From: Sphingomonas sp. Y38-1Y
GTDB taxonomy: Bacteria; Pseudomonadota; Alphaproteobacteria; Sphingomonadales; Sphingomonadaceae
Reading direction: 5' to 3'
DNA length: 64,000 nucleotides
NCBI RefSeq assembly: GCF_032391395.1
Contig: NZ_CP135916.1
Span: forward strand, 2,821,001-2,885,000
Below are positions 1 through 13,260 of the stretch, piece by piece; positions within the stretch are counted from its first letter, which is position 1, and each line of letters opens with the position of its first letter. The notes beneath the pieces were generated by a model, which worked only from the letters and a program-made list of their open reading frames with translations, searched no databases and was not told the origin of the DNA. A program made the position numbers and the translations under genes.

Positions 1-784
1 CGACCGAATTGAGGAAGCCGATCTGCGTCGTCGAGATGCCGCCCGCGGCCCACTGGATCGCGCCGAAGCTGTTGACGACGCCGTGGCTGCCCATGATGCA
101 CGACGCCGCGATCATCGCACCGATCAGCGTGCGATCGCCGAACAGGTCGCGCCAGCTTCCGCGTGCATCGGCTTCGTTCGCGGCGAGCCGCCGGTCGCCC
201 GGCAGGATCATCGCGACCGCGGGGGTCAGCAGGAGGAGCGCGGCGATCAGGATCGGCACCGATCCGATCCCCGTCTGCGTCACCGTCCATCCCGCCGCCG
301 CCGTCGACACGACAACGCCGATCGATCCCCACACGCGCAGCCGCCCGAAATCGAGCCCGGCCGCGCGCACCGCCATGCTGGCATAAGCATCGACGAGGAC
401 GGGGATCTGGTCCCAAACGACTGAGAACACAACGACGATGGCGAAGCGCTGCGCCGCGCTGTCGGCCTGCGACAGGAGCGCGACGAGGATCGCCGCGGCG
501 CCCGCGCTGATGGCGATGCCGCTCCGCACGTGGCGGTGCTTGCCCGCCCAGTTGGCGATCGGCGCCACGGTCACCAGCCGCAGGATCAGCGGGATTGCCA
601 TCAGCAGCCCGATCTCGGCGGGCGTCGCGCCCTTGCTGGACAGATAGAGCGGGATCAGCAGGAAGAACCCGTAGTGCAGATAGAGCGCGGCGTAGAGCGC
701 CGAGGTCTTGAGCGCGAGCCGCGGCGGGCGCACGCCCGTGCCGCCGTCCAGCTCGTCCGCCTGCATCGCGCCGGCCATCAGCAT
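1..784 (-). CDS. MFS permease, HcaT/LacY-like (MFS_1_like), 3' end outside window
   Basis: Inner-membrane major facilitator permease, probably a proton-coupled sugar or small-molecule importer. About 261 of roughly 400 residues are present; the C-terminal half lies beyond base 1. The translation has a hydrophobic first helix (LYLHYGFFLLIPLYLSSKG) and the block LLMAIPLILRLVTVAPIANW followed by charged KHRHVR. Further on are DQIPVLVDAYASM and GRLRVWGSIG. This pattern is typical of the HcaT (phenylpropionate permease)/nucleoside-symporter branch. The ATG at 784 has GGGGAAAGG just upstream; a second in-frame ATG at 778 overlaps the trehalase TGA as ATGA, so translational coupling is likely. It is the last gene seen of a receptor-trehalase-permease operon, so an imported disaccharide derivative is the best guess at substrate. 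The substrate itself cannot be read from the sequence. Confidence 0.85.
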   Translation of the reverse strand, partial: MLMAGAMQADELDGGTGVRPPRLALKTSALYAALYLHYGFFLLIPLYLSSKGATPAEIGLLMAIPLILRLVTVAPIANWAGKHRHVRSGIAISAGAAAILVALLSQADSAAQRFAIVVVFSVVWDQIPVLVDAYASMAVRAAGLDFGRLRVWGSIGVVVSTAAAGWTVTQTGIGSVPILIAALLLLTPAVAMILPGDRRLAANEADARGSWRDLFGDRTLIGAMIAASCIMGSHGVVNSFGAIQWAAGGISTTQIGFLNSV

Positions 785-2286
785 CGCCTTTCCCCATCCC
801 CGTTGCGGCCGTCCAGGAGATCGACAAAGGCTGCGGTCACGCCGTTGGTCCAGCCAAAGCCCACCTGCGGCACATATTCGCCGCCGGCGCCTCGCCCGCC
901 CAGTTCGACATCGTATTTCTCGTGGATCGCGCCGCTGCGCCGGAACTCGGCATCGACCGTCGCGATCCAGCGGGTCGCGATCGTGTCGGCCAGCGCCGCG
1001 TGCCCATATCGGCGGAGGCCGCGGAACGCGATCCACTGGAGCGGCGCCCAGCCATTGGGCCAGTCCCATTGCTCGCCCGTCTCGACCAGGGTGGTGCGAA
1101 GACCGCCCGGCCCCAGCAGCCGATCGGCGACGATCCGCGCCGCCGCCTCGGCCTGTCCAGCGGTCGCGACGCCGGTGAACAGCGGCGCGAGCGTGGCGGC
1201 GGTCGGCCGGTCGGCGAGGCGCCCCTGCTCCAGATCGAAGTCGCCGTACCAGCCGGCGGGCGACCACAGCCAGCGATGCATCGCGGTCCGACGGCGCCGC
1301 GCATGCTTGCGGAACTGCGCCGCGACCCGGTCGCGGCAAAGCGCGTCGGCGAACTCGGCGATCGTCACCTCCAGGCCATAGAGGAAGGCGTTGAGATCGA
1401 CGGGCACGATCCGATGCGTCCGGATCGTCGCGAGGTCGCCGCCCTCGGCCAGCCAGCGCGAGGAAAAGTCCCACCCGCTTTCTGCGCCCGCACGCAGCGC
1501 GCGGAAGACGTCGGCCGGGTCGCGCTGGCCCGATGCGGTCGCCACGTCCTCGGCAAAGGATTCGTCTCGCGGCGTGTCGCGATCATCCCAGTAACGGTTG
1601 AGGCGCGCGCCATCGGGCATCGCGAACACGCGCCCGCCGCGGGCGTCCTCCCGCATCCAATAGGCGTGCTCGGCCAGCATCGCCGCCAGCCGACGCGCCT
1701 GCACCGCCGGATCGGCATCGGGGAGCAGCCGCAGCATCGCGAAATAGAGCGGCGGCTGCGACCGACTGAGATAATAGCTGCGCGTGCCGTTGGGGATGTG
1801 CCCGAACCGCTCGATCAGGCCGGTGAACGCCTCGACCATCCCGCGCGCCACGCTCTCGTGCCCGTCGCGCACCAAGCCCAGCATCGTGAAATAGCTGTCC
1901 CAGTAATAGAGCTCGGCAAAACGGCCGCCGGGCACCGCATGCGGCTGATCGATCGGCAGCAGCGACGTGCCCGGCACCGCATCGTGCGGCGGCCGGATCA
2001 GCTCCGGCCACAGCGATCGGATATAGCCGCGCAGGTCCTCTTCCCGCACCGCCTCGTGCACCGCGACGGAGGCGGGCAGCGCGAAATGCGCCTCGACGAA
2101 GGCGCGCAGGTCGGCGTCGTCGCGCGGCGTTCCGGCAAAGCGCGCCATCACCTCGGCGGCGGGCATCGCCGGCACCGCGTCGACGAAGGTCTTGCCGTCG
2201 GCGAACAGCCGCCGGAGCTGAACCGCCTCGAACAGCGGGCCATAGCGGTCGGCCGGCGACAGGACCGGATCGTCCGGCATCCACAT
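778..2286 (-). CDS. treA: GH37 trehalase, cytoplasmic
   Basis: Hydrolyses alpha,alpha-trehalose to two glucoses. About 502 aa, the usual length for GH37. Both trehalase signatures are visible: PGGRFAELYYWDSYF near residues 119-133 and QWDWPNGWAP near 406-415. The catalytic acid matches the Asp in ESGWDFSSRW (about 273) and the base matches the Glu in HEKYDV (about 456), by comparison with D312/E496 of E. coli TreA. The glycine-rich loop and FGWTNGV follow near the end. The reading frame is open upstream to a TTG at 2325 inside the receptor gene, but ATG 2286 has GGAG about 9 bases upstream and starts just before the conserved region. No signal peptide is present, so it should act in the cytoplasm on imported sugar. 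It lies 28 bp after the receptor and overlaps the permease start. Confidence 0.93.
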   Translation of the reverse strand: MWMPDDPVLSPADRYGPLFEAVQLRRLFADGKTFVDAVPAMPAAEVMARFAGTPRDDADLRAFVEAHFALPASVAVHEAVREEDLRGYIRSLWPELIRPPHDAVPGTSLLPIDQPHAVPGGRFAELYYWDSYFTMLGLVRDGHESVARGMVEAFTGLIERFGHIPNGTRSYYLSRSQPPLYFAMLRLLPDADPAVQARRLAAMLAEHAYWMREDARGGRVFAMPDGARLNRYWDDRDTPRDESFAEDVATASGQRDPADVFRALRAGAESGWDFSSRWLAEGGDLATIRTHRIVPVDLNAFLYGLEVTIAEFADALCRDRVAAQFRKHARRRRTAMHRWLWSPAGWYGDFDLEQGRLADRPTAATLAPLFTGVATAGQAEAAARIVADRLLGPGGLRTTLVETGEQWDWPNGWAPLQWIAFRGLRRYGHAALADTIATRWIATVDAEFRRSGAIHEKYDVELGGRGAGGEYVPQVGFGWTNGVTAAFVDLLDGRNGDGERRC

Positions 2287-2314
2287 GCTGATGGCTCCGA
2301 TGCCGGACGGAAGC

Positions 2315-4579
2315 TTAGTTGCCAAACCGGTAGCCGACGCGAATGCCGTACATCCGCGGCTCGGTATAGGTCAGGCCCACGACCGACGGCCCGGCGGCAT
2401 AGAGATCGATCACGCCGACGGGCTTCGCGACATTGGTCAGGTTGGTGCCGAACGCGGTGATGCTGAGCGGTCGCCCGCCGACATTGTTCAGCCCGACACT
2501 GGCGTTGAGCAGGCCATAGCCCGGCAGCTCGCGATAGAAGGACTGGTTGGTCTGCGCGGTCGAGACCTCGGTCTGGCGCACATAGTTGGCGCTGAGCGTC
2601 AGGTCGCCCGCACGCCCCAGCGGCGCCTCGTACGTCCCGCCGACCGAGAATTTGTGCTCGGGCGTATAGGGGAAGGGCGCGCCGTTCAGGATCGCACCCG
2701 CGCTCGCATCGGCAACCTCGGTATAGCGCGCGTCGATATACGAGTAGCTGCCGTTGAGCGTCAGCCCGGTGAACGGGATGAGCGCGGCGTTGATCTCGAC
2801 ACCCTGCACCCGGCCCTTGGCAGCGCTGCGCGTGACGTTGAGCACGACGCCGCTCACCTGTTCGGCGGTCGTGCGCTGGATGTTGTCGTAATTGCCGCGA
2901 TAGGCCGCGACGTTCAGCCGGCCCTTCATCGTGCCGACGTCAAACTGGGCCTTCAGCCCCGCCTCGATGTCCGACAGCCGCTCGGCGGGGAACACGCGAA
3001 AGGCCGAACCCTCGGGCACCGGGCCGTTGACGCCGCCCGACTTGTACGCGTCGCGCGAGGTCAGATAGACATGGATGCCGCTCGACACGTCATAGTCGAT
3101 CGTGGCGGTGTAGCTCAGGTAATCGTCGTCGAACGTTCCCTCGACCGCCGGCGGCGCGATCAGCGTCGTGGCGGTGAAGCTGTGCTCCCAGGTATAGCGA
3201 AGCCCGCCGGTCAGGCTCAGCCCGCGAAGCGCCGGGGTCAGTACGCCCAGGTCCACGGTCGCTTGGCCGAACACCGCTTCGCTGCGGTTCTTCAGCACCT
3301 GAAAGAAGGGCACCGGCGGGATCAGCGTGCCGACCGGGAACAGCGTGAACTCCTGGATACCTGCCGGCCCGCTCCACGTCTGACGGTCGAGATAACCGCC
3401 GATCGAGAAGTTGATCGCGCGATTGGCGGCGGTCCCCTGAAGCTGGAGCTCCTCGGTGAAGGTGTTGGGCGCGAGCACCGGGATGCCGCGGCTGACCTGT
3501 CCCGCGAGCGGCAACGGCGTCGCGTCATAGTCATAGGTGTATTTGCTGCGAAACTCCGAATAGCTGGCGATGTTGCGCAGCTTCAGCGTGTCGCCGAGGT
3601 CGATCGAGGTCTGGTTGACCACTTGCCAGTAATCGGTCAGCGATCGCTGGTTGAGGTCGTAGCTGACGCGGCGCGGCCCGCGCCCCTGCTGGTCGGCGAG
3701 CTGCGAGCCGATCGTCGGATAGAACAGGCCGATCAGCGCCGCCCCCGCCGGATTGACCGCGCCCAGCACGGTGCCGCCACCATTGGTGTCCGAGTTGTAG
3801 TAGCGCGCGACCGTATAGCTCTCGATCCCGTCGGCGGGACGGAGCGTTAGGCCTAGGCGAACACTCTGATAAGCAAGGTTGTCGTAATCCTTGCCCGCAA
3901 AGTTCGGCCCGACATCGATGGTATAGCCATCGCGGCGACCGACCTCGCCCGCAACGCGCAGCAGCACCTTGTCCGGCACGACGGGCAGGTTGAGCGCGCC
4001 CTCGATCCGCGCATTGTTGTAGTTGCCATACTCGGCGCGGACATAGCCCTCGAACGCGTTTCGCGGCTTCGCAGGCTCGAACAGGATGTTACCGCCGGTC
4101 GCGTTCTTGCCGAACAGCGTGCCCTGCGGCCCCGACACGACCTGGACGTTGGCGAGGTCGTAATAGGTGCCGACGCGGCCATCGATGCTGGTGGTGTTGG
4201 GGACTTCGGCGAAATAGTTGATGACGCCGGGGGTCGACCCGAACGCCGGCCCCTGCCCGCGCAGCGCGAAGAAGGCGAATTCGCGCGGATAGCCGCCATT
4301 GATCGTGAACAGCGAGGGCGTGTTGTCGGCGAGCGACGTGCGGTCGGTGATCGCCTTCTGCACTAGCACCGCGGGCGTGAAGGCCGTGACCGCGACCGGC
4401 ACGTCCTGCAGATTCTCCTCGCGGCGACGGGCTGTGACGACGACGTCGGCAAAGGCGTCGGGATCGGTGCCGGACGGGTCGGTGGCCGCCTCAGCGGTCT
4501 CGCCCGACACCTGCGCCATGGCCGGAGCGGCGTGCATCATCACCAACGCGCTCGCCGTCGCCCAGAGCTGCCGCTTCAT
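2315..4579 (-). CDS. TonB-dependent outer-membrane receptor (first gene of trehalase operon)
   Basis: Outer-membrane active transporter, 754 aa. The signal peptide is MKRQLWATASALVMMHAAPAMA. A TonB-box-like DVVVTARRREENLQDVPVAV follows near residues 45-65, then the plug (VVSGPQGTLFGKNATGGNI). A 22-strand-type barrel ends in the expected aromatic strand (GIRVGYRFGN). The spacing NIQRTT...GVEINAALIPFTGLTLNGSYSYIDARY is typical of sphingomonad receptors of the FyuA/pesticin type. ATG 4579 is preceded by GGGAGGATGATCG. The gene is followed by trehalase and the permease on the same strand, and its promoter region carries a LacI-type operator (4639-4654). The ligand is presumably the carbohydrate served by the trehalase; this is inferred from context only. 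Confidence 0.93.
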   Translation of the reverse strand: MKRQLWATASALVMMHAAPAMAQVSGETAEAATDPSGTDPDAFADVVVTARRREENLQDVPVAVTAFTPAVLVQKAITDRTSLADNTPSLFTINGGYPREFAFFALRGQGPAFGSTPGVINYFAEVPNTTSIDGRVGTYYDLANVQVVSGPQGTLFGKNATGGNILFEPAKPRNAFEGYVRAEYGNYNNARIEGALNLPVVPDKVLLRVAGEVGRRDGYTIDVGPNFAGKDYDNLAYQSVRLGLTLRPADGIESYTVARYYNSDTNGGGTVLGAVNPAGAALIGLFYPTIGSQLADQQGRGPRRVSYDLNQRSLTDYWQVVNQTSIDLGDTLKLRNIASYSEFRSKYTYDYDATPLPLAGQVSRGIPVLAPNTFTEELQLQGTAANRAINFSIGGYLDRQTWSGPAGIQEFTLFPVGTLIPPVPFFQVLKNRSEAVFGQATVDLGVLTPALRGLSLTGGLRYTWEHSFTATTLIAPPAVEGTFDDDYLSYTATIDYDVSSGIHVYLTSRDAYKSGGVNGPVPEGSAFRVFPAERLSDIEAGLKAQFDVGTMKGRLNVAAYRGNYDNIQRTTAEQVSGVVLNVTRSAAKGRVQGVEINAALIPFTGLTLNGSYSYIDARYTEVADASAGAILNGAPFPYTPEHKFSVGGTYEAPLGRAGDLTLSANYVRQTEVSTAQTNQSFYRELPGYGLLNASVGLNNVGGRPLSITAFGTNLTNVAKPVGVIDLYAAGPSVVGLTYTEPRMYGIRVGYRFGN

Positions 4580-4638
4580 CGATCATCCTCCCTCACGTCC
4601 GGCGCTTCGCCGTTCTGTCACCCTGACCTGCGTCGTTT

Positions 4639-4654
4639 TGATATCGATGTCAAT
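4639..4654. promoter_or_regulatory. LacI-type operator, copy 1 (shared with 7555-7570)
   Basis: TGATATCGATGTCAAT; its reverse complement is identical over 16 bases to 7555-7570. The core TGATATCGATGTCA is an inverted repeat around a central CG, as expected for a LacI-family operator. It lies 60 bp upstream of the receptor start (minus strand) and 16 bp upstream of the hydrolase ATG at 4671. One bound regulator could therefore control both directions. The binding protein is most likely the LacI-family product of 5639-6643. Confidence 0.8.
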
Positions 4655-4670
4655 CTAACTCCTTCGGGGT

Positions 4671-5642
4671 ATGGACAAGCCCCATTTTGCTCTACAGGCT
4701 GATGGTGTGATCGATATCAAAGATGCTCCGCCCCGCCATGCTCGCTGGATCAGCGAGGCTTCAACGGCTCGTTTCGCGCGATTCGCCGACCAGGCGCGCG
4801 CGCCCGCCGGCGACGTCACGGCACAGCGCGCGCATTACGACGCGATCAATAGTGTGCGCCTCGACGTGGCAATGGAGCGCTATCCGGTCGCGATCGAGAC
4901 TCGGTCGATCGGCGGCGTGACGGTGCATGACGTCGTCCCCCGACAGCCGGCGCGCGGCACGCTGATCTGCCTGCATGGCGGCGCGTTCATCTGGGGCGCG
5001 GGCGCCGGCGCCTTGCTCGAGGCGGTGCCCGTGGCCGCCACCGCGGGGATGCGCGTCCTCGCGGTCGAGTACCGCCTCGCGCCCGAGCATCGTTTCCCAG
5101 CGGCGGTCGACGACGTGCTCGCGGTGATCGCGGCGCTGCGCGAAGCCCGTGACGAGCCGATCGGCATCTATGGCTGTTCGGCGGGCGGCGTGCTGGCCGC
5201 GCAGGTGGTCGCGCGTCTGATCGCCGAGGGACAGCAGCCGCCCGCGGCGATCGCGATGCTGCATGGGTCGGGCGTCGACGTCGGCGGCGATTCGCTCGCG
5301 ACCGCGGCGCTTCTCAACGGCGCGCCCGGCGATATCCGCCGCCTGCACGACCTGTCCTATTTCGACGGGACCTCGCCCACCGACCCGCTCGTCTTCCCGG
5401 GCGAGAGCGCACAAGGGCTCGCCGACTTCCCCCCGTCGCTCCTGATCTCGGGCACCCGCGACTTCGCCGCCAGCAGCGTCGCGGTGATGCATCGCCGCCT
5501 CCTTGCCGCGGGGGTCGATGCGCAATTCGTGCTGTTCGACGGCATGTGGCACGCGCATCACGTCGACACCGACCTACCCGAAGCGCAGGAGACGCACGAC
5601 CTGCTGGGCCATTTCTTCCGCCGGCAGCTGTCGCGCGCCTAG
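4671..5642 (+). CDS. Alpha/beta hydrolase, HSL (hormone-sensitive lipase) family, copy 1
   Basis: Cytoplasmic carboxylesterase-like enzyme, 323 aa, without signal peptide. The oxyanion-hole motif is HGGAF at residues 102-106 (an HGGG variant). The nucleophile elbow is GCSAGG with Ser about 170, and LISGTRDF supplies the acid. The His lies in GMWHAHH near the end. The neighbouring YRLAPEHRFPAAVDD block is the classic family-IV esterase sequence. It is divergent from the TonB receptor, with the LacI-type operator between them. The stop codon overlaps the convergent LacI gene stop (CTAG). The ATG at 4671 has only a weak ribosome site (GGGG close by), and no better in-frame start was found. One of three such hydrolases under the same predicted regulator; the ester cleaved is unknown. 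Confidence 0.88.
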   Translation: MDKPHFALQADGVIDIKDAPPRHARWISEASTARFARFADQARAPAGDVTAQRAHYDAINSVRLDVAMERYPVAIETRSIGGVTVHDVVPRQPARGTLICLHGGAFIWGAGAGALLEAVPVAATAGMRVLAVEYRLAPEHRFPAAVDDVLAVIAALREARDEPIGIYGCSAGGVLAAQVVARLIAEGQQPPAAIAMLHGSGVDVGGDSLATAALLNGAPGDIRRLHDLSYFDGTSPTDPLVFPGESAQGLADFPPSLLISGTRDFAASSVAVMHRRLLAAGVDAQFVLFDGMWHAHHVDTDLPEAQETHDLLGHFFRRQLSRA

Positions 5643-6643
5643 CCCGCCTGGCTGCTGTCGCGGACGATCAGTTCGACGGGCAGCAGGCCGGGCAGCGCGA
5701 ACGCCTCCGGGTCGTCGATCAGCGCCAGGATCGCCTCGCCGAGCATGCGCCCGGCGCGTGACCAGTCCTGGCGGATCGATGACAGCGGGGGGCGGTGATT
5801 GGCGGCGACGGCGATGTCGTCGAAGCCGACGATCGCGACCTCGCCCGGAACGCTCCGCCCCCGCTCGATCAACGCATCGCAGGCGCCCGCCGCGATGAAG
5901 TCGCTTGCCGCCACCACCGCATCGAAGGCGACGCCCGCCTCGGCCAGCTCGGCGATCGCCGCCGCACCCGCGGCTCGCGAAAAGTCGCAGGGAACAGTGG
6001 CGGCGATGATCGCCGGGGCCGCCGCGACGACGTCGCGCACGCCCTCCAGCCGCGCGGCGACCTCCGGATGCTGCGCATCGCCCAGGAACACCAGCCGTTG
6101 GCGACCGCCCTCGACCAGATGCCGCGCGCTCAGCTGGCCGCCCAGCCGGTTGTCGCTGCCGATTACGGCATGGTCGCTGCCCGGCAGCGGCGATCCCCAC
6201 AACACCATCGGAAGGCCGGATGCCGCGATCGCCTGGGCGCGCTTGCCGCCGATCCCCTGCCCCAGCATGACGATTCCGTCGGCATCGACGATCTGGCTGT
6301 CGAGGAAATGGTCGCTCGACGTCACCAGCATCGCCTGCCCCGCAGGCGTCAACGTCTCCAGCAGCCCACCGATGATCGACAGGACGAGCGGGTCGGAGAT
6401 CGGGCGATCGCCCGCGACCAGACGCTCGATCACCAGCGCCACCGTCCGGCTGCGCCGCGTCCGCAGCGCCCGCGCCGCGCCGTTCATGCGATACCCCGCC
6501 TCGCGCGCGATCTCGGCGATCCGCTCGCGCAGCTCGGGGCGGACGAGATCGCTGCCGCGCAGCGCGCGCGACACCGTGATCTTCGAAACGCCGGCCAGTT
6601 CGGCGAGCGTCTCCATCGTCGGCCTGGCGGTTTCCTTCCTCAT
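5639..6643 (-). CDS. LacI-family transcriptional regulator
   Basis: Ligand-responsive repressor, 334 aa. The N-terminal helix-turn-helix and hinge helix run from TMETLAELAGVSKITVSRAL through GYRMNGAARALRTRRS (about residues 9-65). A periplasmic-binding-like effector domain follows (VALVIE..., GSDNRLGGQLSARHLVEGG, VAIVGFDDIAVAANHRPPLSSI). The usual family length is 330-350. The ATG at 6643 overlaps the stop of the upstream hydrolase as ATGA, so the two are one operon. It is convergent with, and overlaps by 4 bp, the hydrolase at 4671. It very probably binds the two identical 16-bp palindromes at 4639 and 7555. That would make it an autoregulated local regulator of the receptor/trehalase operon and the hydrolase operons. 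The inducer may be trehalose or an ester of it; this is inference. Confidence 0.93.
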   Translation of the reverse strand: MRKETARPTMETLAELAGVSKITVSRALRGSDLVRPELRERIAEIAREAGYRMNGAARALRTRRSRTVALVIERLVAGDRPISDPLVLSIIGGLLETLTPAGQAMLVTSSDHFLDSQIVDADGIVMLGQGIGGKRAQAIAASGLPMVLWGSPLPGSDHAVIGSDNRLGGQLSARHLVEGGRQRLVFLGDAQHPEVAARLEGVRDVVAAAPAIIAATVPCDFSRAAGAAAIAELAEAGVAFDAVVAASDFIAAGACDALIERGRSVPGEVAIVGFDDIAVAANHRPPLSSIRQDWSRAGRMLGEAILALIDDPEAFALPGLLPVELIVRDSSQAG

Positions 6644-7506
6644 GGGCGATCGAAATAGAGGGCGATCCGCGCGCCGAGCAAGTCATAGGCGGCAGCGACG
6701 CGCGGTTCGGAAGCCGGCAGGAACATGAACCCGTGCGGCAGCGCGGGCAGGCGCTGCACCGAAACCTCGTTCCCCGCCCGCGTAAGCGCGAGGGCGTAGA
6801 ACTCGCCGTCGTCGCGAAGTGGGTCGAGCTCGACGGTGACGACGACCGCGGGGGCGAGGGCGGACAGGTCGGCGGCGTGTAGCGGCGACACATGGGGATG
6901 CTCCGCCGACACGTCGCCCAGATAGGCGCCGACGCATTCCGCCAGGAACGCGCGGCTGAGGCCCGGCAGCTCCACCGCGTCGATGCTCGGCTGCGACAGG
7001 GTGAGATCGGTCGGCGGATGGACGAGCAGCTGGAAACGCGGCTGCGCCTCGCCCGCCTCACGCAGGCGCAACGTCAGCGCGGCGGCCAGGTTCGCGCCCG
7101 CGCTCTCGCCACCAATCGCGACCCGCGCCGGATCGCAGCCCAGTGCCGCCGCCCGCGCCGAAGCCCAACGCCAGGCGGTACCGACATCGTCGAGACCGGC
7201 GGGAAAGCGATGCTCGGGCGCGAGCCGATATCCGACCGCCAGCACCGCGCAACCCGCGCGCTCGCTCAACCAGCGGCAACAGGCGTCGTGCGTATCGAGG
7301 TCGCCAAGGATCCAGCCGCCGCCGTGCAGGAACACGAGCAGCGGCAGCTGCCCGGCAGCGCCCGCCGGGCGATACAGACGCACCGGCACGCCGTCCGCAT
7401 CGTGATCCGCCGCTTCGAGCTCGGGTGCCGGCAGTGCCCGCCCCTGCTCGGCCATCGATCGCCGAAGCGCGGGCAGGTCGCCCAACAGCGTCGCGCCATC
7501 CCTCAT
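6640..7506 (-). CDS. Alpha/beta hydrolase, HSL family, copy 2
   Basis: Esterase/lipase of family IV, 288 aa, no signal peptide, so cytoplasmic. HGGGW lies at residues 61-65 and the nucleophile elbow is GGESAGAN with Ser about 135. VELDPLRDDGEFYALAL supplies the catalytic Asp region and LPHGFMFL the His. YRLAPEHRFPAGLDDV is the family block between them. It lies directly upstream of, and overlaps by 4 bp, the LacI gene. It is divergent from the hydrolase at 7623, and the second LacI-type operator lies 49 bp upstream of its ATG. It is clearly diverged from the two neighbouring hydrolases, which suggests different ester positions or acyl chains rather than redundancy. Confidence 0.9.
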   Translation of the reverse strand: MRDGATLLGDLPALRRSMAEQGRALPAPELEAADHDADGVPVRLYRPAGAAGQLPLLVFLHGGGWILGDLDTHDACCRWLSERAGCAVLAVGYRLAPEHRFPAGLDDVGTAWRWASARAAALGCDPARVAIGGESAGANLAAALTLRLREAGEAQPRFQLLVHPPTDLTLSQPSIDAVELPGLSRAFLAECVGAYLGDVSAEHPHVSPLHAADLSALAPAVVVTVELDPLRDDGEFYALALTRAGNEVSVQRLPALPHGFMFLPASEPRVAAAYDLLGARIALYFDRP

Positions 7507-7554
7507 CGCTTCGTACCCGCTTGCACCGCTGCCCCCTCAACACTCCGCAGCGTT

Positions 7555-7570
7555 ATTGACATCGATATCA
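7555..7570. promoter_or_regulatory. LacI-type operator, copy 2
   Basis: ATTGACATCGATATCA, identical over 16 bases to the reverse complement of 4639-4654. It sits in the 116-bp divergent region between hydrolase copy 2 (ATG 7506, minus) and hydrolase copy 3 (ATG 7623, plus). A dimeric LacI-family protein bound here could control both the regulator's own operon and the rightward hydrolase/CoA-transferase operon. Confidence 0.8.
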
Positions 7571-7622
7571 TCGGCATTGCAAGTCTGTGTGCATCAGGCG
7601 CCCGCTTGAGGCGCAGGGAGAG

Positions 7623-8570
7623 ATGAAGCCGATGCCCCCAACCTTCCCGCAACCCGCGCTCGCTCCCACCGTCAGCGCCGAAGCGCGCGAGGCGCTTGCA
7701 CCGCTGTTAGCTTCGCTGACGATGCCGCGGCCCGAGGTGACGGTCGAGCAGATGCGCGATTTCGCCACCATGACGATGGCCGCCGTGGTCCAGCGCCGCG
7801 CGCCGGGGCAAAAGGCGGTGGTCAAGCCGGGCAGCCTTGCCGGTGTCCCGGTGCAGATCGTCTCGCGCGACGGGTCGCTGCCCGATGGCGGCCCGCTGCT
7901 CCTCAACTTCCACGGCGGCGGCTTCGTGGTCGATTCGGGATCGCTGGCGGAATCGATCCCGATCGCCGACCTGACGGGAATCCCCGTGCTGTCGGTCCTT
8001 TACCGACTGGCCCCCGAGCACCCCTATCCCGCCGCGGTCGACGATGCGCTTGCCGCGTATCGGACGGCGTTGAAGACCCGCCGACCCAGCGAGATCGCGA
8101 TCTTCGGCACCTCGGCAGGGGCGGGCCTGTGCGTCCAGCTCGTCGCCCGGCTGCGGCGCGAGGGCCTGCCCTTGCCGGCGGCGATGGGCTTCTTCTCGGG
8201 CGCCGCCGATTGCGCGCTGCCCGGCGACATCGAAGGCTATCTGCCGCCACTGCTCCCCGGCCAGTCGGTGCCGGAGACGCTGAAGCCCTATCTCGCCGCG
8301 GCGGACCCTCGCGATCCGCTCGTCTCGCCAATCTACGGCTCGCTCGATGGCTGGCCGCCGACGCTGGCGATGACGAGCACCCGCGACATCCTGCTCAGCC
8401 AGACCGTGCGCTTCCACCTTGCCCTCCGCGCGGCCGGCAACGCGGCCGATCTGCTGGTGTACGAGGGGATGCCGCACGCCTTCTGGGCCTATGCCGATTG
8501 TCCGGAAACCGATGCGGCGTACAAGGCGCAGGCGAACTTCCTCGCGCATGCCATCAGGTCGCGCGGATGA
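7623..8570 (+). CDS. Alpha/beta hydrolase, HSL family, copy 3
   Basis: Cytoplasmic family-IV esterase, 315 aa from ATG 7623. This start is chosen because GGGAGAG lies directly upstream; an in-frame ATG at 7587 has no ribosome site. HGGGF lies near residues 98-102 and the nucleophile elbow is GTSAGAG with Ser about 164. TSTRDILLSQTVRFH supplies the acid and GMPHAFWAY the His. It is the first gene rightward from the operator at 7555-7570 and is followed after 13 bp by the CoA-transferase gene. The arrangement suggests that the acid it releases is activated to a CoA thioester by the next enzyme. The substrate is not known. Confidence 0.9.
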   Translation: MKPMPPTFPQPALAPTVSAEAREALAPLLASLTMPRPEVTVEQMRDFATMTMAAVVQRRAPGQKAVVKPGSLAGVPVQIVSRDGSLPDGGPLLLNFHGGGFVVDSGSLAESIPIADLTGIPVLSVLYRLAPEHPYPAAVDDALAAYRTALKTRRPSEIAIFGTSAGAGLCVQLVARLRREGLPLPAAMGFFSGAADCALPGDIEGYLPPLLPGQSVPETLKPYLAAADPRDPLVSPIYGSLDGWPPTLAMTSTRDILLSQTVRFHLALRAAGNAADLLVYEGMPHAFWAYADCPETDAAYKAQANFLAHAIRSRG

Positions 8571-8583
8571 TGGAGCTTTGGTC

Positions 8584-9903
8584 ATGATTGGCGAAACGCA
8601 GCGCTATCGCGACAAGCTGATGTCGGCTGACGCGGCGGCGGCGCTTATCCCGGACGGCGCGCGGATCTGTATGGCCCTTGGCGTCGCGCAGCCGCCGGCA
8701 CTGCTCGATGCGCTCGCCCGCCGGGCCGAAGCGGGCGGGATCGAGGGGGCGAGCCTCTATTATCTCCTGTCGACATCGATCGCCGGCCGGACCGTCCTGC
8801 GCCGGGATCTTCGTCACCGCCTGCGCCCGATGAGCCTCTTCCACAGCGCGATCGAGCGGACGCTGAACGGAGAGGCGGTCGCGGCTGGCGATCCGGATGT
8901 CGACTTCATCCCCGTCGCGTTCAGCCGCGTCCCGCGCATGCTGAGAGACGAGATCGGCGTCGACACGCTCATCACGCAAGTCGCCCCCCCGGACGAGCAC
9001 GGCAATTTCAGCCTGGGCACCAACATCGACTATGCGCACGGTGCGGCGCGGTCGTGCGAGCGGGTGATCGTCGAGGTCAACCCGCGGATGCCCCGCGTCG
9101 GCGGCGACAGCATGATCCCATTCTCGGTAGTCACCGCGATCGTCGAGCACGACCAGCCCCTGATCGAGATCCCGTCGGCTGCTCGCCGGCCGCAGGACGA
9201 GGCGATCGGCGCGATCATCGCCGGGATGATCGAGGACGGCTCCTGCCTTCAGATGGGGATCGGCGCGGTGCCGGAGGCGGTCTGCGCGGCGCTGCACGGG
9301 CATCGCTATCTCGGCATCCACTCGGAACTGCTGACGCCGGGCCTGGCCGGGCTGATGCAGGCGGGCGTTGCCGACAACAGCCGCAAGGAGATCCATCGCG
9401 GGCGGACGATCTTCACCTTCGCGATGGGCGACCGGGGCTTCTACGACTTCCTGCACGACAATCCGGCGCTGGAGGGTCATCCGGTCGATTACGTCAACGA
9501 CGCCGCGGTGATCGCCCGGCACTCGAAGATGGTCTCGATCAACGCCACGCTGGAGGTCGACCTTCACGGCGCCTGCAATTCGGAGGCGGTGGACGGTCGG
9601 CAGTATAGCGCGGCGGGCGGCCAGCTCGATTTCGTCCGCGGCGCAGGCGCGTCGATCGGGGGCAAGTCGATCATCGCCTGTCACGCCACCGCGGCGGGCG
9701 GCGCCGTGTCCCGGATCGTGCCGCGCCTGTCGGGCCCCGTCACCACGCCGCGCAACGACGTCCACATCGTCGTCACCGAGTTCGGCGCCGCCCATCTGCG
9801 CGGCAAGTCGCTGGTCGAGCGCGGCGAAGCGCTGATCGCGATCGCCCACCCGAAGTTCAGGGACGCGCTGACCGAACAACTGCACACGCGCAGGGCCGGC
9901 TAA
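8584..9903 (+). CDS. Acetyl-CoA hydrolase/transferase family (4-hydroxybutyrate CoA-transferase-like)
   Basis: Class I CoA-transferase/hydrolase that moves CoA between carboxylic acids through a glutamyl-CoA intermediate; 439 aa. The N-terminal half has LAVPPDEHGNFSLG-type sequence (here QVAPPDEHGNFSLGTNIDY, about 132-150) and GGDSMIPFS. The C-terminal half has LQMGIGAVPEAV and GIHSELL, whose Glu (about 248) matches the catalytic glutamate of 4-hydroxybutyrate and acetate CoA-transferases. ATG 8584 (GGAG upstream) is preferred over the open frame running back to 8419, which lies inside the hydrolase gene. It is in an operon with esterase copy 3, so it probably activates an acid released from an ester. 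Possible substrates are acetate, propionate, succinate or hydroxybutyrate; the exact pair cannot be told. Confidence 0.87.
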   Translation: MIGETQRYRDKLMSADAAAALIPDGARICMALGVAQPPALLDALARRAEAGGIEGASLYYLLSTSIAGRTVLRRDLRHRLRPMSLFHSAIERTLNGEAVAAGDPDVDFIPVAFSRVPRMLRDEIGVDTLITQVAPPDEHGNFSLGTNIDYAHGAARSCERVIVEVNPRMPRVGGDSMIPFSVVTAIVEHDQPLIEIPSAARRPQDEAIGAIIAGMIEDGSCLQMGIGAVPEAVCAALHGHRYLGIHSELLTPGLAGLMQAGVADNSRKEIHRGRTIFTFAMGDRGFYDFLHDNPALEGHPVDYVNDAAVIARHSKMVSINATLEVDLHGACNSEAVDGRQYSAAGGQLDFVRGAGASIGGKSIIACHATAAGGAVSRIVPRLSGPVTTPRNDVHIVVTEFGAAHLRGKSLVERGEALIAIAHPKFRDALTEQLHTRRAG

Positions 9904-9980: not shown

Positions 9981-11234
9981 ATGGTCTCACCGTCGGCGGC
10001 GCCGCCCCTCTCCTCGTCCGATCCGGCCACCAGCCATCATCGGGAGCCGGCCCGCCTCCGCGCCGCCAATGCCGCGCTGCACGCGCTATGGGATCGGGGT
10101 TGGGCGACGACGCCCTCGCTGAACTGTGACGCGCTGATCGGCAAGGCGTCGGCCAAGGCGGGCGCGGCGCCGGACGAGGACCGGGTCGGCTGGCGCGATC
10201 GGCTGGCGATCCTGTGCGAGGATCTGGAGGCGCATGCCGGGCTGAGCGACCTGGGTCGCACGATCGCGCATGGGCAACTCGTCTCGGCGCTGACCGCCCG
10301 CTTTCGCGCCCATGCGCTCTGGCGGCGCCATCCCGAGATCGCGGACCTGCCCATCACCCGGCCGATCATCATCGTCGGGCAGATGCGATCGGGCAGCACG
10401 CGGATGCAAAGGCTGCTCGCCTGTGACCCACGGCTGACCTTCACCCGCTTTTTCGAAAGCTGGAACCCCGTTCCCGGCTCCGGGATCGTCGATACCAGGC
10501 GCCTGAAGGGCTGGACCGGGCTGAAGCTCGCGCACCTGCTCAATCCCGCGTTCGGGACGATCCATCCAACCGCGTCGGACGCGCCGGACGAGGAAATCGG
10601 GCTGCACAGCCTGTCGATCTTCGGCTCCGCTTTCGAAGCGCAGTGGCGCGTGCCGACCTACACCGCCGCGATCGAAGAGGGCGACGCGGTCGCCGTCTAT
10701 CGCGAGTTCCGCCACCTGCTCCAGACGCTGGCGTGGCTGCGCGGCGGGGCGGAGACACGGCCCTGGGTGCTGAAGGTGCCGCAATTTACGCAGGACCTGC
10801 CCGCCATCCTCCGCGTCTTCCCCGACGCGCGTCTGATCCGCCTGCGCCGCGACCTGGGCGACGTGGTCGCGTCCTCGGCCTCGCTGGTCTGCAATCAGAT
10901 GCAGGTGCAGTCGCGCGACGTCGATCCAGACTGGGTCGCACGCGAATGGGCACGCAAGGTCCAACTCCGCCACGACCGAAGCGAGGCGGCGTTCGAGGCA
11001 ACCACCGCACCGCGGGTCGAGGTCGGCTATGACGAGCTGTCGGGCGATTGGACGCGGGAGATGCGCCGCGTGTACCGGATGCTCGACATGCCCCTGCCCG
11101 CCGATGTGCTCGATCGGATGCAGCGCTATCTGGAGACGTCCGATCCGTCCCGGCGAAAGCGTCACGATTACCGCGCCGTGCCGTTCGGCGGCGGCGCAGA
11201 GCCGAAGCGACTGGATCCCATACCCGCGCGATAG
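9981..11234 (+). CDS. Sulfotransferase family protein (PAPS-dependent type)
   Basis: Predicted sulfotransferase, 417 aa, PF13469-like. The 5'-phosphosulfate loop is clear: IIIVGQMRSGSTRMQRLL around residues 128-145. The 3'-phosphate region is RLIRLRRDLGDVVASSASL near 280-298, and a final KRHDYR block is present. The N-terminus before the P-loop is a helical region with no signal peptide or membrane segment. It starts 78 bp after the CoA-transferase on the same strand; whether it shares that transcript is uncertain because the gap has no clear promoter or terminator. Many bacterial members of this family act on lipids, saccharides or unknown acceptors. The acceptor here is unknown, and no PAPS synthesis genes lie in the window. 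Confidence 0.85.
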   Translation: MVSPSAAPPLSSSDPATSHHREPARLRAANAALHALWDRGWATTPSLNCDALIGKASAKAGAAPDEDRVGWRDRLAILCEDLEAHAGLSDLGRTIAHGQLVSALTARFRAHALWRRHPEIADLPITRPIIIVGQMRSGSTRMQRLLACDPRLTFTRFFESWNPVPGSGIVDTRRLKGWTGLKLAHLLNPAFGTIHPTASDAPDEEIGLHSLSIFGSAFEAQWRVPTYTAAIEEGDAVAVYREFRHLLQTLAWLRGGAETRPWVLKVPQFTQDLPAILRVFPDARLIRLRRDLGDVVASSASLVCNQMQVQSRDVDPDWVAREWARKVQLRHDRSEAAFEATTAPRVEVGYDELSGDWTREMRRVYRMLDMPLPADVLDRMQRYLETSDPSRRKRHDYRAVPFGGGAEPKRLDPIPAR

Positions 11235-11313: not shown

Positions 11314-13260
11314 ATGATGAAGAGTGAAATCAACCCGCGGGTGTTCTGGGGGGCCTCCGCGATCATCGCCCTGCTGCTCGCGACGACGATCGCGATGCCG
11401 GGGACGGCCGATGCGGCGTTCAAGGCGGCGCAAAGCTGGGCCATCGACACGTTCGGCTGGTTCTATATCTCGGCCGTAGCCGTGTTCCTCGTCGTGGTGC
11501 TGGCGCTCGGCTTCGGCCCGGCGGGCAAGCTGAAGTTCGGGCCGGACGATGCCGAGCCCGACTTCCCCTATCTCTCGTGGCTCGCCATGCTGTTCGCCGC
11601 GGGCATGGGCATCGGGCTGATGTATTTCGCCGTCGCCGAGCCCATCCAGCACTATATCTCGCCGCCCGAGGCGGAGAGCGGCACCATCCTTGCCGCGCGC
11701 GAGGCGATGGCGATCACCTTCCATCATTACGGCGTCCACGCCTGGGCGATCTATGCGCTGGTGGGCATGAGCCTCGCCTATTTTACCTATCGCAAGGGCA
11801 TGCCGCTGACGTTGCGGTCGGGGCTGTCGCCGATCCTGGGCAAGCGGATCGACGGACCGCTGGGCGATGCGATCGACATCTTTGCCGTCTGCGGCACGGT
11901 GTTCGGTGTCTCAACCTCGCTCGGATTCGGCGTGTCACAGATGACGGCGGGCCTCGCCTACGAATACGGGCTCGTCGATACGACCGCGACCAAGCTCGTC
12001 ATCATCGTGGTGGTGATGGGCGCGGCGACGCTGTCGGTGCTGAGCGGCGCGGATCGCGGCATCCGGCGATTGTCGGAGCTCAATCTGGTTCTCGCCATCC
12101 TGCTGATGCTGTTCGTGATGGCGGTCGGGCCGACCCTCTTCCTGCTTCGCGCGCTGGTGCAGAATTTCGGCCTCTACCTCGACCATTTCGTGATCCGGAC
12201 CTTCACGCTCTACGCCTATGAACCACGCGCGTGGATGGCGGACTGGACGCTGTTCTATTGGGCGTGGTGGATCGCCTGGTCGCCGTTCGTCGGCATGTTC
12301 ATCGCGCGCATCTCACGCGGGCGGACCATCCGGGAGTTCGTGATCGGCGTGCTGTTCGTGCCGACCGCCTTCACCTTCCTGTGGATGACGGTGTTCGGCA
12401 ATACCGCGATCTCGCTCGATCTGGGATCGGCCGCTGGTGGGATCGCCGACGCCGTTCAGGCCAATCTTTCGACCGCGCTGTTCAAGTTTCTGGAGTATCT
12501 GCCGGCGGCGGGCGTCACCTCGACGCTGGCGATCGTGCTGGTGGCGGTCTTCTTCGTGACGTCGGCCGATTCCGGTGCGCTGGTGATCGACACGCTCGCA
12601 TCGGGCGGATCGGATGACACGCCGCGGTGGCAGCGCATGTACTGGTGCGTGCTGCTGGGCGCGACGGCCGCCATGCTGCTGGTGGCCGGCGGCCTAGGCG
12701 CGCTGCAAGCGGCGACCTTGCTCGCCGCCCTGCCCTTCTGCTTCATCATGCTGCTGCTGGCGTTCGGCCTGATCCGTCAGACCAACGCCGATCTGGCGGG
12801 CGTCACGCTGTCGAGCGACACACCGTCGGTCGGCGAGCGGATCAAGCGGATCCTGGTCCCGGCGCGCCGTGCCGACATCCTCCAGCAGATCGCCGAGAAT
12901 GGCGAGCCGGCGCTACGCTCCGTCCAGGAGGCGATGGAGAAGGAAGGCCTGTCCACCTGCGAGGTGAACAGCGAGGGCAACGCGGTCGAGCTCATCATCG
13001 CCGGGGCCGGCAATCGCCCGTTCGTCTATCGCCTGGCGCCGCGGTCGCGGCCGATGGCCGCCTATACCGCGCTCGAGGCGCCGGAAAACCGCCGCAGCCT
13101 CGTCTGGATGCTCGCCGCACAGGTGAATGGCGAGACCGGGTTCCGCGACCTGACCGGCTTCACCGTCGCCCAGATCGCGAGCGACGTGCTGACCCAGCTC
13201 GAACGCTGGCGCCTCGCCGGGCCGGCGACCGATCGTAAGGAGGTCGCGCCGGACCGCTGA
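11314..13260 (+). CDS. BCCT-family betaine/choline/carnitine transporter
   Basis: Inner-membrane secondary transporter for quaternary ammonium compounds, 648 aa with twelve predicted membrane helices. The unwound-helix motif AGMGIGLMYFAVAEP appears near residues 95-108; its glycines match Na+-coupled BetP rather than CaiT. The aromatic substrate box WTLFYWAWWIAWSPFVGMFIA is the family signature, followed by RISRGRTIREF. A cytosolic C-terminal extension of about 150 residues (from RRADILQQIAENGEP) resembles the regulatory tail of BetT-type carriers. Two ATG codons in tandem (11314, 11317) follow an AGG; the second has the better spacing. Likely an osmolyte importer. It is not obviously tied to the LacI locus. 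Confidence 0.92.
   Translation: MMKSEINPRVFWGASAIIALLLATTIAMPGTADAAFKAAQSWAIDTFGWFYISAVAVFLVVVLALGFGPAGKLKFGPDDAEPDFPYLSWLAMLFAAGMGIGLMYFAVAEPIQHYISPPEAESGTILAAREAMAITFHHYGVHAWAIYALVGMSLAYFTYRKGMPLTLRSGLSPILGKRIDGPLGDAIDIFAVCGTVFGVSTSLGFGVSQMTAGLAYEYGLVDTTATKLVIIVVVMGAATLSVLSGADRGIRRLSELNLVLAILLMLFVMAVGPTLFLLRALVQNFGLYLDHFVIRTFTLYAYEPRAWMADWTLFYWAWWIAWSPFVGMFIARISRGRTIREFVIGVLFVPTAFTFLWMTVFGNTAISLDLGSAAGGIADAVQANLSTALFKFLEYLPAAGVTSTLAIVLVAVFFVTSADSGALVIDTLASGGSDDTPRWQRMYWCVLLGATAAMLLVAGGLGALQAATLLAALPFCFIMLLLAFGLIRQTNADLAGVTLSSDTPSVGERIKRILVPARRADILQQIAENGEPALRSVQEAMEKEGLSTCEVNSEGNAVELIIAGAGNRPFVYRLAPRSRPMAAYTALEAPENRRSLVWMLAAQVNGETGFRDLTGFTVAQIASDVLTQLERWRLAGPATDRKEVAPDR

Follow-up and report, generated by a model that had tools for sequence, protein, structure and literature searches.

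A CUT-type locus with trehalase and esterase genes

The sux locus for sucrose of Xanthomonas campestris is a carbohydrate utilization locus containing a TonB-dependent receptor (CUT locus) and, in the parts of the source that describe it, combines a TonB receptor, a transporter of the major facilitator superfamily (MFS), a LacI/GalR regulator, and a sugar-converting enzyme for a disaccharide (PMC1790865). The locus studied here, at positions 1 to 9903 of a 64,000-nucleotide stretch of the Sphingomonas sp. Y38-1Y genome (the window), shares this outline and contains every kind of gene by which those parts of PMC1790865 define CUT loci, i.e., a TonB receptor, an inner-membrane transporter, a LacI regulator, and a carbohydrate-degrading enzyme. 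Compared to sux as portrayed there, it encodes a trehalase instead of an amylosucrase, three esterases of the hormone-sensitive lipase (HSL) type and a CoA-transferase are added, and the genes form divergent units with two operator copies. In kind, the predicted gene set is that of a CUT locus with an added deacylation and acid-activation module, and we consider it reasonably likely that the locus is specialized for esterified trehalose, which would be deacylated and split in the cytoplasm.

The host contig is a single sequence of 3.58 Mb, and the cluster has genes on both strands as listed below. Gene identities come from profile matches, and the HGG and G-x-S-A-G motifs were checked in the esterases.

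1-784, minus strand: MFS permease (MFS_1_like; PF12832, 108 bits), 5' part only; the whole gene is at 174-1385 of stretch L224
778-2286, minus strand: alpha,alpha-trehalase of glycoside hydrolase family 37 (GH37; profile match; likeliest start 2286; catalytic residues intact)
2315-4579, minus strand: TonB-dependent receptor (profile match; signal-peptide-like start)
4639-4652, minus strand: LacI-type operator TGACATCGATATCA between receptor and EST1 (exact copy; overlaps a TTGACA hexamer facing the receptor gene)
4671-5642, plus strand: EST1, HSL esterase with GCSAG motif (profile match; no signal-peptide-like start)
5639-6643, minus strand: LacI-family regulator (profile match)
6640-7506, minus strand: EST2, HSL esterase with GESAG motif (profile match; no signal-peptide-like start)
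7557-7570, plus strand: second exact operator copy TGACATCGATATCA between EST2 and EST3 (sequence match)
7623-8570, plus strand: EST3, HSL esterase with GTSAG motif (profile match; no signal-peptide-like start)
8584-9903, plus strand: CoA-transferase of the 4-hydroxybutyrate CoA-transferase group (AcetylCoA_hydro family; GIHSE motif at residue 244)

Taken one by one, the enzymes have well-described relatives. The trehalase shares family GH37 with TreA (periplasmic) and TreF (cytoplasmic) of E. coli but falls into a separate clade that sits with esterases. EST1 and EST3 are sequence relatives of the HSL esterases PMGL2, E25, and EstD11, with HGG and GCSAG/GTSAG motifs; while these have reportedly been studied as single esterases, three kinds of esterase lie within one predicted sugar regulon here. 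The CoA-transferase has 4-hydroxybutyrate CoA-transferases as its nearest solved relatives (PDB 4n8h, 3qli, and others), which it matches over its full length with at best 454 bits, yet it is placed in a putative sugar-ester locus. No description of a dedicated bacterial pathway for the uptake and breakdown of acyl-trehalose was found in the open-access literature searched, which was covered mostly at abstract level.

A first-pass annotation made from the sequence had assigned the trehalase to GH37 and the esterases to family IV by their motifs, and the profiles confirm both assignments together with all other genes that it named. EST1 to EST3 each match the Abhydrolase_3 profile and carry both motifs expected of HSL (family IV) enzymes, HGG and, around the nucleophile, G-x-S-A-G, and they are the top three of 17 Abhydrolase_3 matches in the host genome (EST2, 223 bits; EST3, 148 bits; EST1, 123 bits; next, 70 bits). 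The 3' end of the permease gene lies 428 bp beyond the start of the window and adjoins a tRNA-Arg gene.

Regulon, related clusters, and enzymes

Without mismatch, TGACATCGATATCA occurs exactly twice in the host genome, once in each divergent intergenic region of the cluster, and at these positions it fronts four units (receptor-trehalase-MFS, EST1, EST2-LacI, and EST3-CoA-transferase). An operator-like site with two mismatches is found at 4706-4719, inside the 5' end of EST1. Across eight genomes, the pattern TGACATCGATAnCA with its one free position has 13 sites, every one of them inside a cluster of the type described below, compared to 0 for the backwards pattern used as control. Six of the eight genomes have exactly two sites, and one is found in a Sphingopyxis metagenome-assembled genome (MAG; L030) whose contig starts inside the receptor gene; the conserved operator is confined to the cluster in seven of the eight. 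The receptor-side copy starts with TTGACA in the window and in L011, L012, L013, L151, L025, and L225, as would be expected if the repressor covers the -35 box. Co-regulation of these genes, as proposed by the first-pass annotation, is therefore backed by two perfect, genome-unique operator copies and by the location of all 13 sites, and the cluster very probably constitutes one regulon, as far as such sequence evidence can tell.

The operator motif, mostly in close pairs, is also present upstream of a different TonB receptor and trehalase in two related MAG loci (L069, 6267-9675; L082, 3646-9670), where no HSL esterase or LacI match to the window proteins was found within the stretch. The LacI regulator itself belongs to a larger family: of 7998 candidates scored from sequence databases, 323 match it at E<=1e-60, all as sequences without genomic context. 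LacI homologues in L211 to L221 were rejected as cluster relatives, since no other query gene matched beside them.

Related clusters were sought by a trehalase scan of genome contigs, with the best 80 of 596 confirmed loci compared to the window proteins, and in 397 genomes of the family, which have 36 trehalase places in 33 genomes (E<=1e-120; the 35 outside the host were fetched). This search for the same gene set elsewhere, suggested by the first-pass annotation, gave eight further clusters in sphingomonads, so that nine are known across several genera with shuffled gene order (the window, L011 to L014, L025, L030, L151, and L225; L222 from genome G411 was left out of the counts, being taken as the same genome as L011, RIT328). 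One of them, L225 (genome G593), was found through its LacI, as the third of three genomes among 396 at E<=1e-90, and not via the trehalase scans. Each of the nine clusters encodes two to four HSL esterases. All window cluster genes plus a fourth esterase are present in L151 (genome G395), and the receptor, trehalase, LacI, EST1, EST2, CoA-transferase, and MFS permease are all present in L011, L012, and L013. The L030 cluster is cut by the contig end, and L025 (Novosphingobium sp. MW5) has no CoA-transferase and an EST1 match split over two frames. In the latter locus, 5649-6561 and 11776-12792 hold this split match and an IS110-type transposase downstream of the trehalase. Spread of the cluster on plasmids was considered and rejected: no plasmid matches EST2 at E<=1e-50, and the 74 plasmid records that match the trehalase are all <60% identical. 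Likewise, EST3-like genes of genomes G133, G189, and G061 were dismissed because their neighborhoods (L186 to L188) have no match to other query genes.

The trehalase matches the Pfam Trehalase profile with 467 bits (cut-off 21), is the sole match to this family in the host genome at E<=0.001, and scores above the TreF subfamily cut-off (535 versus 512 bits). It is identical to E. coli TreA at 14 of 15 checked positions, and the exception, aligned with TreA residue 198, is also variable in other trehalases; conserved positions include those aligned with Asp312 and Glu496 of TreA, which we take to be the GH37 catalytic pair. Clade-specific changes in the active site were considered as a clue to the substrate, but none are present at the catalytic positions. 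In a tree of 114 distinct trehalases (duplicates L041, the same as L167, and L061, the same as L174, were removed beforehand), eight cluster trehalases form one clade with support of 99, and every one of them has two or more HSL esterases within 5 kb. Of the 106 trehalases outside this clade, 11 have at least one within that distance, counts which include 12 loci of reduced length due to a contig end or a cut stretch. With L225, which entered only this second tree, the nine cluster trehalases still form one clade (SH-aLRT 99). The association of trehalase and esterases in related loci, whose absence the first-pass annotation had named as evidence against its proposal, thus holds for nine clusters and one trehalase clade. 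The genome of G395 has a second trehalase outside the clade, so its cluster copy looks dedicated.

Signal-peptide-like starts were judged from hydropathy and by eye, not by a trained predictor. By this measure, the TonB receptor as positive control has one and EST1 to EST3, the trehalase, and the CoA-transferase of the window have none, in line with the earlier claim that the esterases and the trehalase lack signal peptides, and deacylation in the window is probably entirely cytoplasmic. The corresponding claim that an intact ester is imported may be true of the window. It cannot be generalized, since the esterase beside the permease has a signal-peptide-like start in six of nine clusters (L011, L012, L013, L151, L030, and L225) and several clusters with a looser combination of trehalase and esterase have signal-peptide-like trehalases and esterases. 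The exported-type esterase of the relatives suggests that the first deacylation may be periplasmic there. The window lacks this enzyme, and no further strong Abhydrolase_3 esterase is present in the host genome.

Acid activation, another element of the first-pass annotation, is encoded in seven of the nine clusters, each with at least one of two unrelated enzymes, a CoA-transferase and an acyl-CoA ligase, and some with both. CoA-transferases are found in five clusters (the window, L011, L012, L013, and L151) and acyl-CoA ligases in four, with one type in L012 and L013, where an SCP2-type thiolase follows directly, and another in L030 and L225, for which 3-(methylthio)propionyl-CoA ligase is the best match in NCBIfam, below cut-off. 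That the activating enzyme is replaced by an unrelated one argues for a carboxylic acid that is released and used. Elsewhere in the genomes, the CoA-transferase query has a partial match of 46% in that of L025 and a second copy (60%) in that of L013, and it has no match in the whole genomes of L014 and L030. Overall, the trehalase, the esterases, and acid activation are conserved together and very probably regulated together, except for activation in two of nine clusters and the operator in one of eight genomes.

Proposed substrate and alternative explanations

In actinobacteria, trehalose esters are prominent as surface lipids and as biosurfactants. In the pathway that we propose, the receptor would take acyl-trehalose through the outer membrane and the MFS permease would move it into the cytoplasm, where the three HSL esterases would strip the acyl groups, each at different positions. 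The GH37 trehalase would then cleave the deacylated trehalose into two glucose molecules, and the released acid would be converted into acyl-CoA by the CoA-transferase. LacI would repress the units around its two operators, with trehalose or a derivative as the probable inducer that releases it. HSL esterases and the ligase type of two relatives appear to fit short to medium acyl groups. The first-pass annotation had suggested succinoyl- or acyl-trehalose lipids of actinobacteria as substrate, but we found nothing specific to succinoyl-trehalose or long-chain lipids, and the identity of the ester is our conjecture. Of its overall interpretation, the regulon, its conservation, acid activation, and the trehalase catalytic residues stand, while the substrate remains a proposal and import of an intact ester does not hold in general. 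If acyl-trehalose is indeed used, the cluster would supply a ready set of esterases for sugar esters, and the idea lends itself to direct testing because the regulon is compact and conserved and has a defined operator.

Several observations weigh against esterified trehalose as the substrate, a proposal that is built on sequence comparison. HSL esterases are promiscuous enzymes whose sequences do not reveal the substrate. The best NCBIfam match of the permease is a 3-phenylpropionate MFS transporter (169 bits, below the cut-off of 259), and the only solved protein to which it is plausibly related by sequence is a nucleoside transporter, with a weak match. Counterparts of the cytoplasmic EST3 are missing from L011, L012, and L013, where the sole EST3 relative is the exported-type esterase. 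In the variant cluster L014, LacI is only distantly related (38%), the MFS permease is of another kind, and a GH95 enzyme is encoded, and no TGACATCGATAnCA site was found anywhere in its genome; no acid-activation gene was found within the stretches of L014 and L025. The operator motif at the esterase-less trehalase loci L069 and L082 indicates that it is not specific for ester use. Finally, the full cluster around the trehalase is rare, being found in two of the 397 family genomes (the host and G395), whereas 33 of the 397 have a trehalase at E<=1e-120.

Oligosaccharide-extended acyl-trehaloses occur in actinobacteria as well, and the natural substrate could be a larger glycoside or glycolipid that is built on alpha,alpha-trehalose and carries further decorations, of which the window set would handle only the simplest form. 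In favor of this, there are looser loci in which trehalase and HSL esterase stand with GH1, GH3, and GH42 enzymes and a TonB receptor (L090), with GH1 and GH42 enzymes (L156, TonB receptor not seen in the stretch), or with a GH1 enzyme, a TonB receptor, and an acyl-CoA ligase (L027, whose GH1 protein cluster is also found in L045). In two further loci (L041, 3286-11485; L042, 3105-11476), two sulfatases and a TonB receptor are encoded divergently from a pair of HSL esterase and trehalase genes; the sulfatases were identified by Pfam in L041 and by protein clustering in L042. L014 adds its GH95 enzyme. We nevertheless regard this explanation as unlikely, since no such enzymes were found among the window or core cluster genes except in L014 (not every open reading frame was scanned) and the tie to actinobacterial lipids is tentative. 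The substrate could also be some other alpha-glucosidic disaccharide, or a glucoside ester, e.g., a plant acyl sugar, with the trehalase acting on a related product. In L209 and L210, a LacI homologue (45-49% identical) lies with an HSL esterase, MFS permease, TonB receptor, sulfatase, and, in place of the trehalase, a GH65 protein whose nearest relatives are maltose/kojibiose phosphorylases; its family was assigned by Pfam in L210 and through sequence similarity to GH65 structures in L209. The conserved catalytic positions of the trehalase, from a family that to our knowledge is known only for trehalose, make this very unlikely. Together, the looser trehalase/esterase and GH65 loci would fit a family of loci for decorated acyl-glucosides. 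It is tempting, though rather doubtful, to speculate that sphingomonads have diverse TonB-fed regulons dismantling acylated, in part sulfated or beta-glycosylated, trehalose glycolipids shed by neighboring actinobacteria, one branch of these regulons being centered on the dedicated trehalase lineage.

It seems quite unlikely that the locus serves free trehalose, with the esterases and CoA-transferase acting on another co-occurring ester under a regulator shared through the same niche. Consistent with such a role, an HSL esterase match within 5 kb is lacking at 95 of the 114 GH37 loci (some are cut by contig ends), and the motif at L069 and L082 lies beside trehalases without an esterase match, but the cluster trehalase clade is always accompanied by at least two esterases. 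A detoxification cluster for xenobiotic or drug esters that captured a trehalase by chance is highly improbable: EST2 reaches 219 bits against the chloramphenicol-hydrolase model of NCBIfam, whose cut-off is 500, and scores higher with LipP1 hormone-sensitive lipase (256 bits, itself below the cut-off of 350), while the TonB receptor, LacI, the permease, and acid activation suggest catabolism and are shared by clusters of different genera.

Flanking genes

A sulfotransferase gene (Sulfotransfer_3; 9981-11234, plus strand) directly follows the CoA-transferase gene, and its membership in the regulon is unsure. Neither this gene nor the BCCT transporter gene after it was matched in the fetched loci at E<=1e-12, and both were rejected as cluster parts. 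Upstream of the window, past the tRNA-Arg gene, open reading frames of 2393 and 580 amino acids (L002, 5340-14297, minus strand) resemble a two-partner secretion system by eye.

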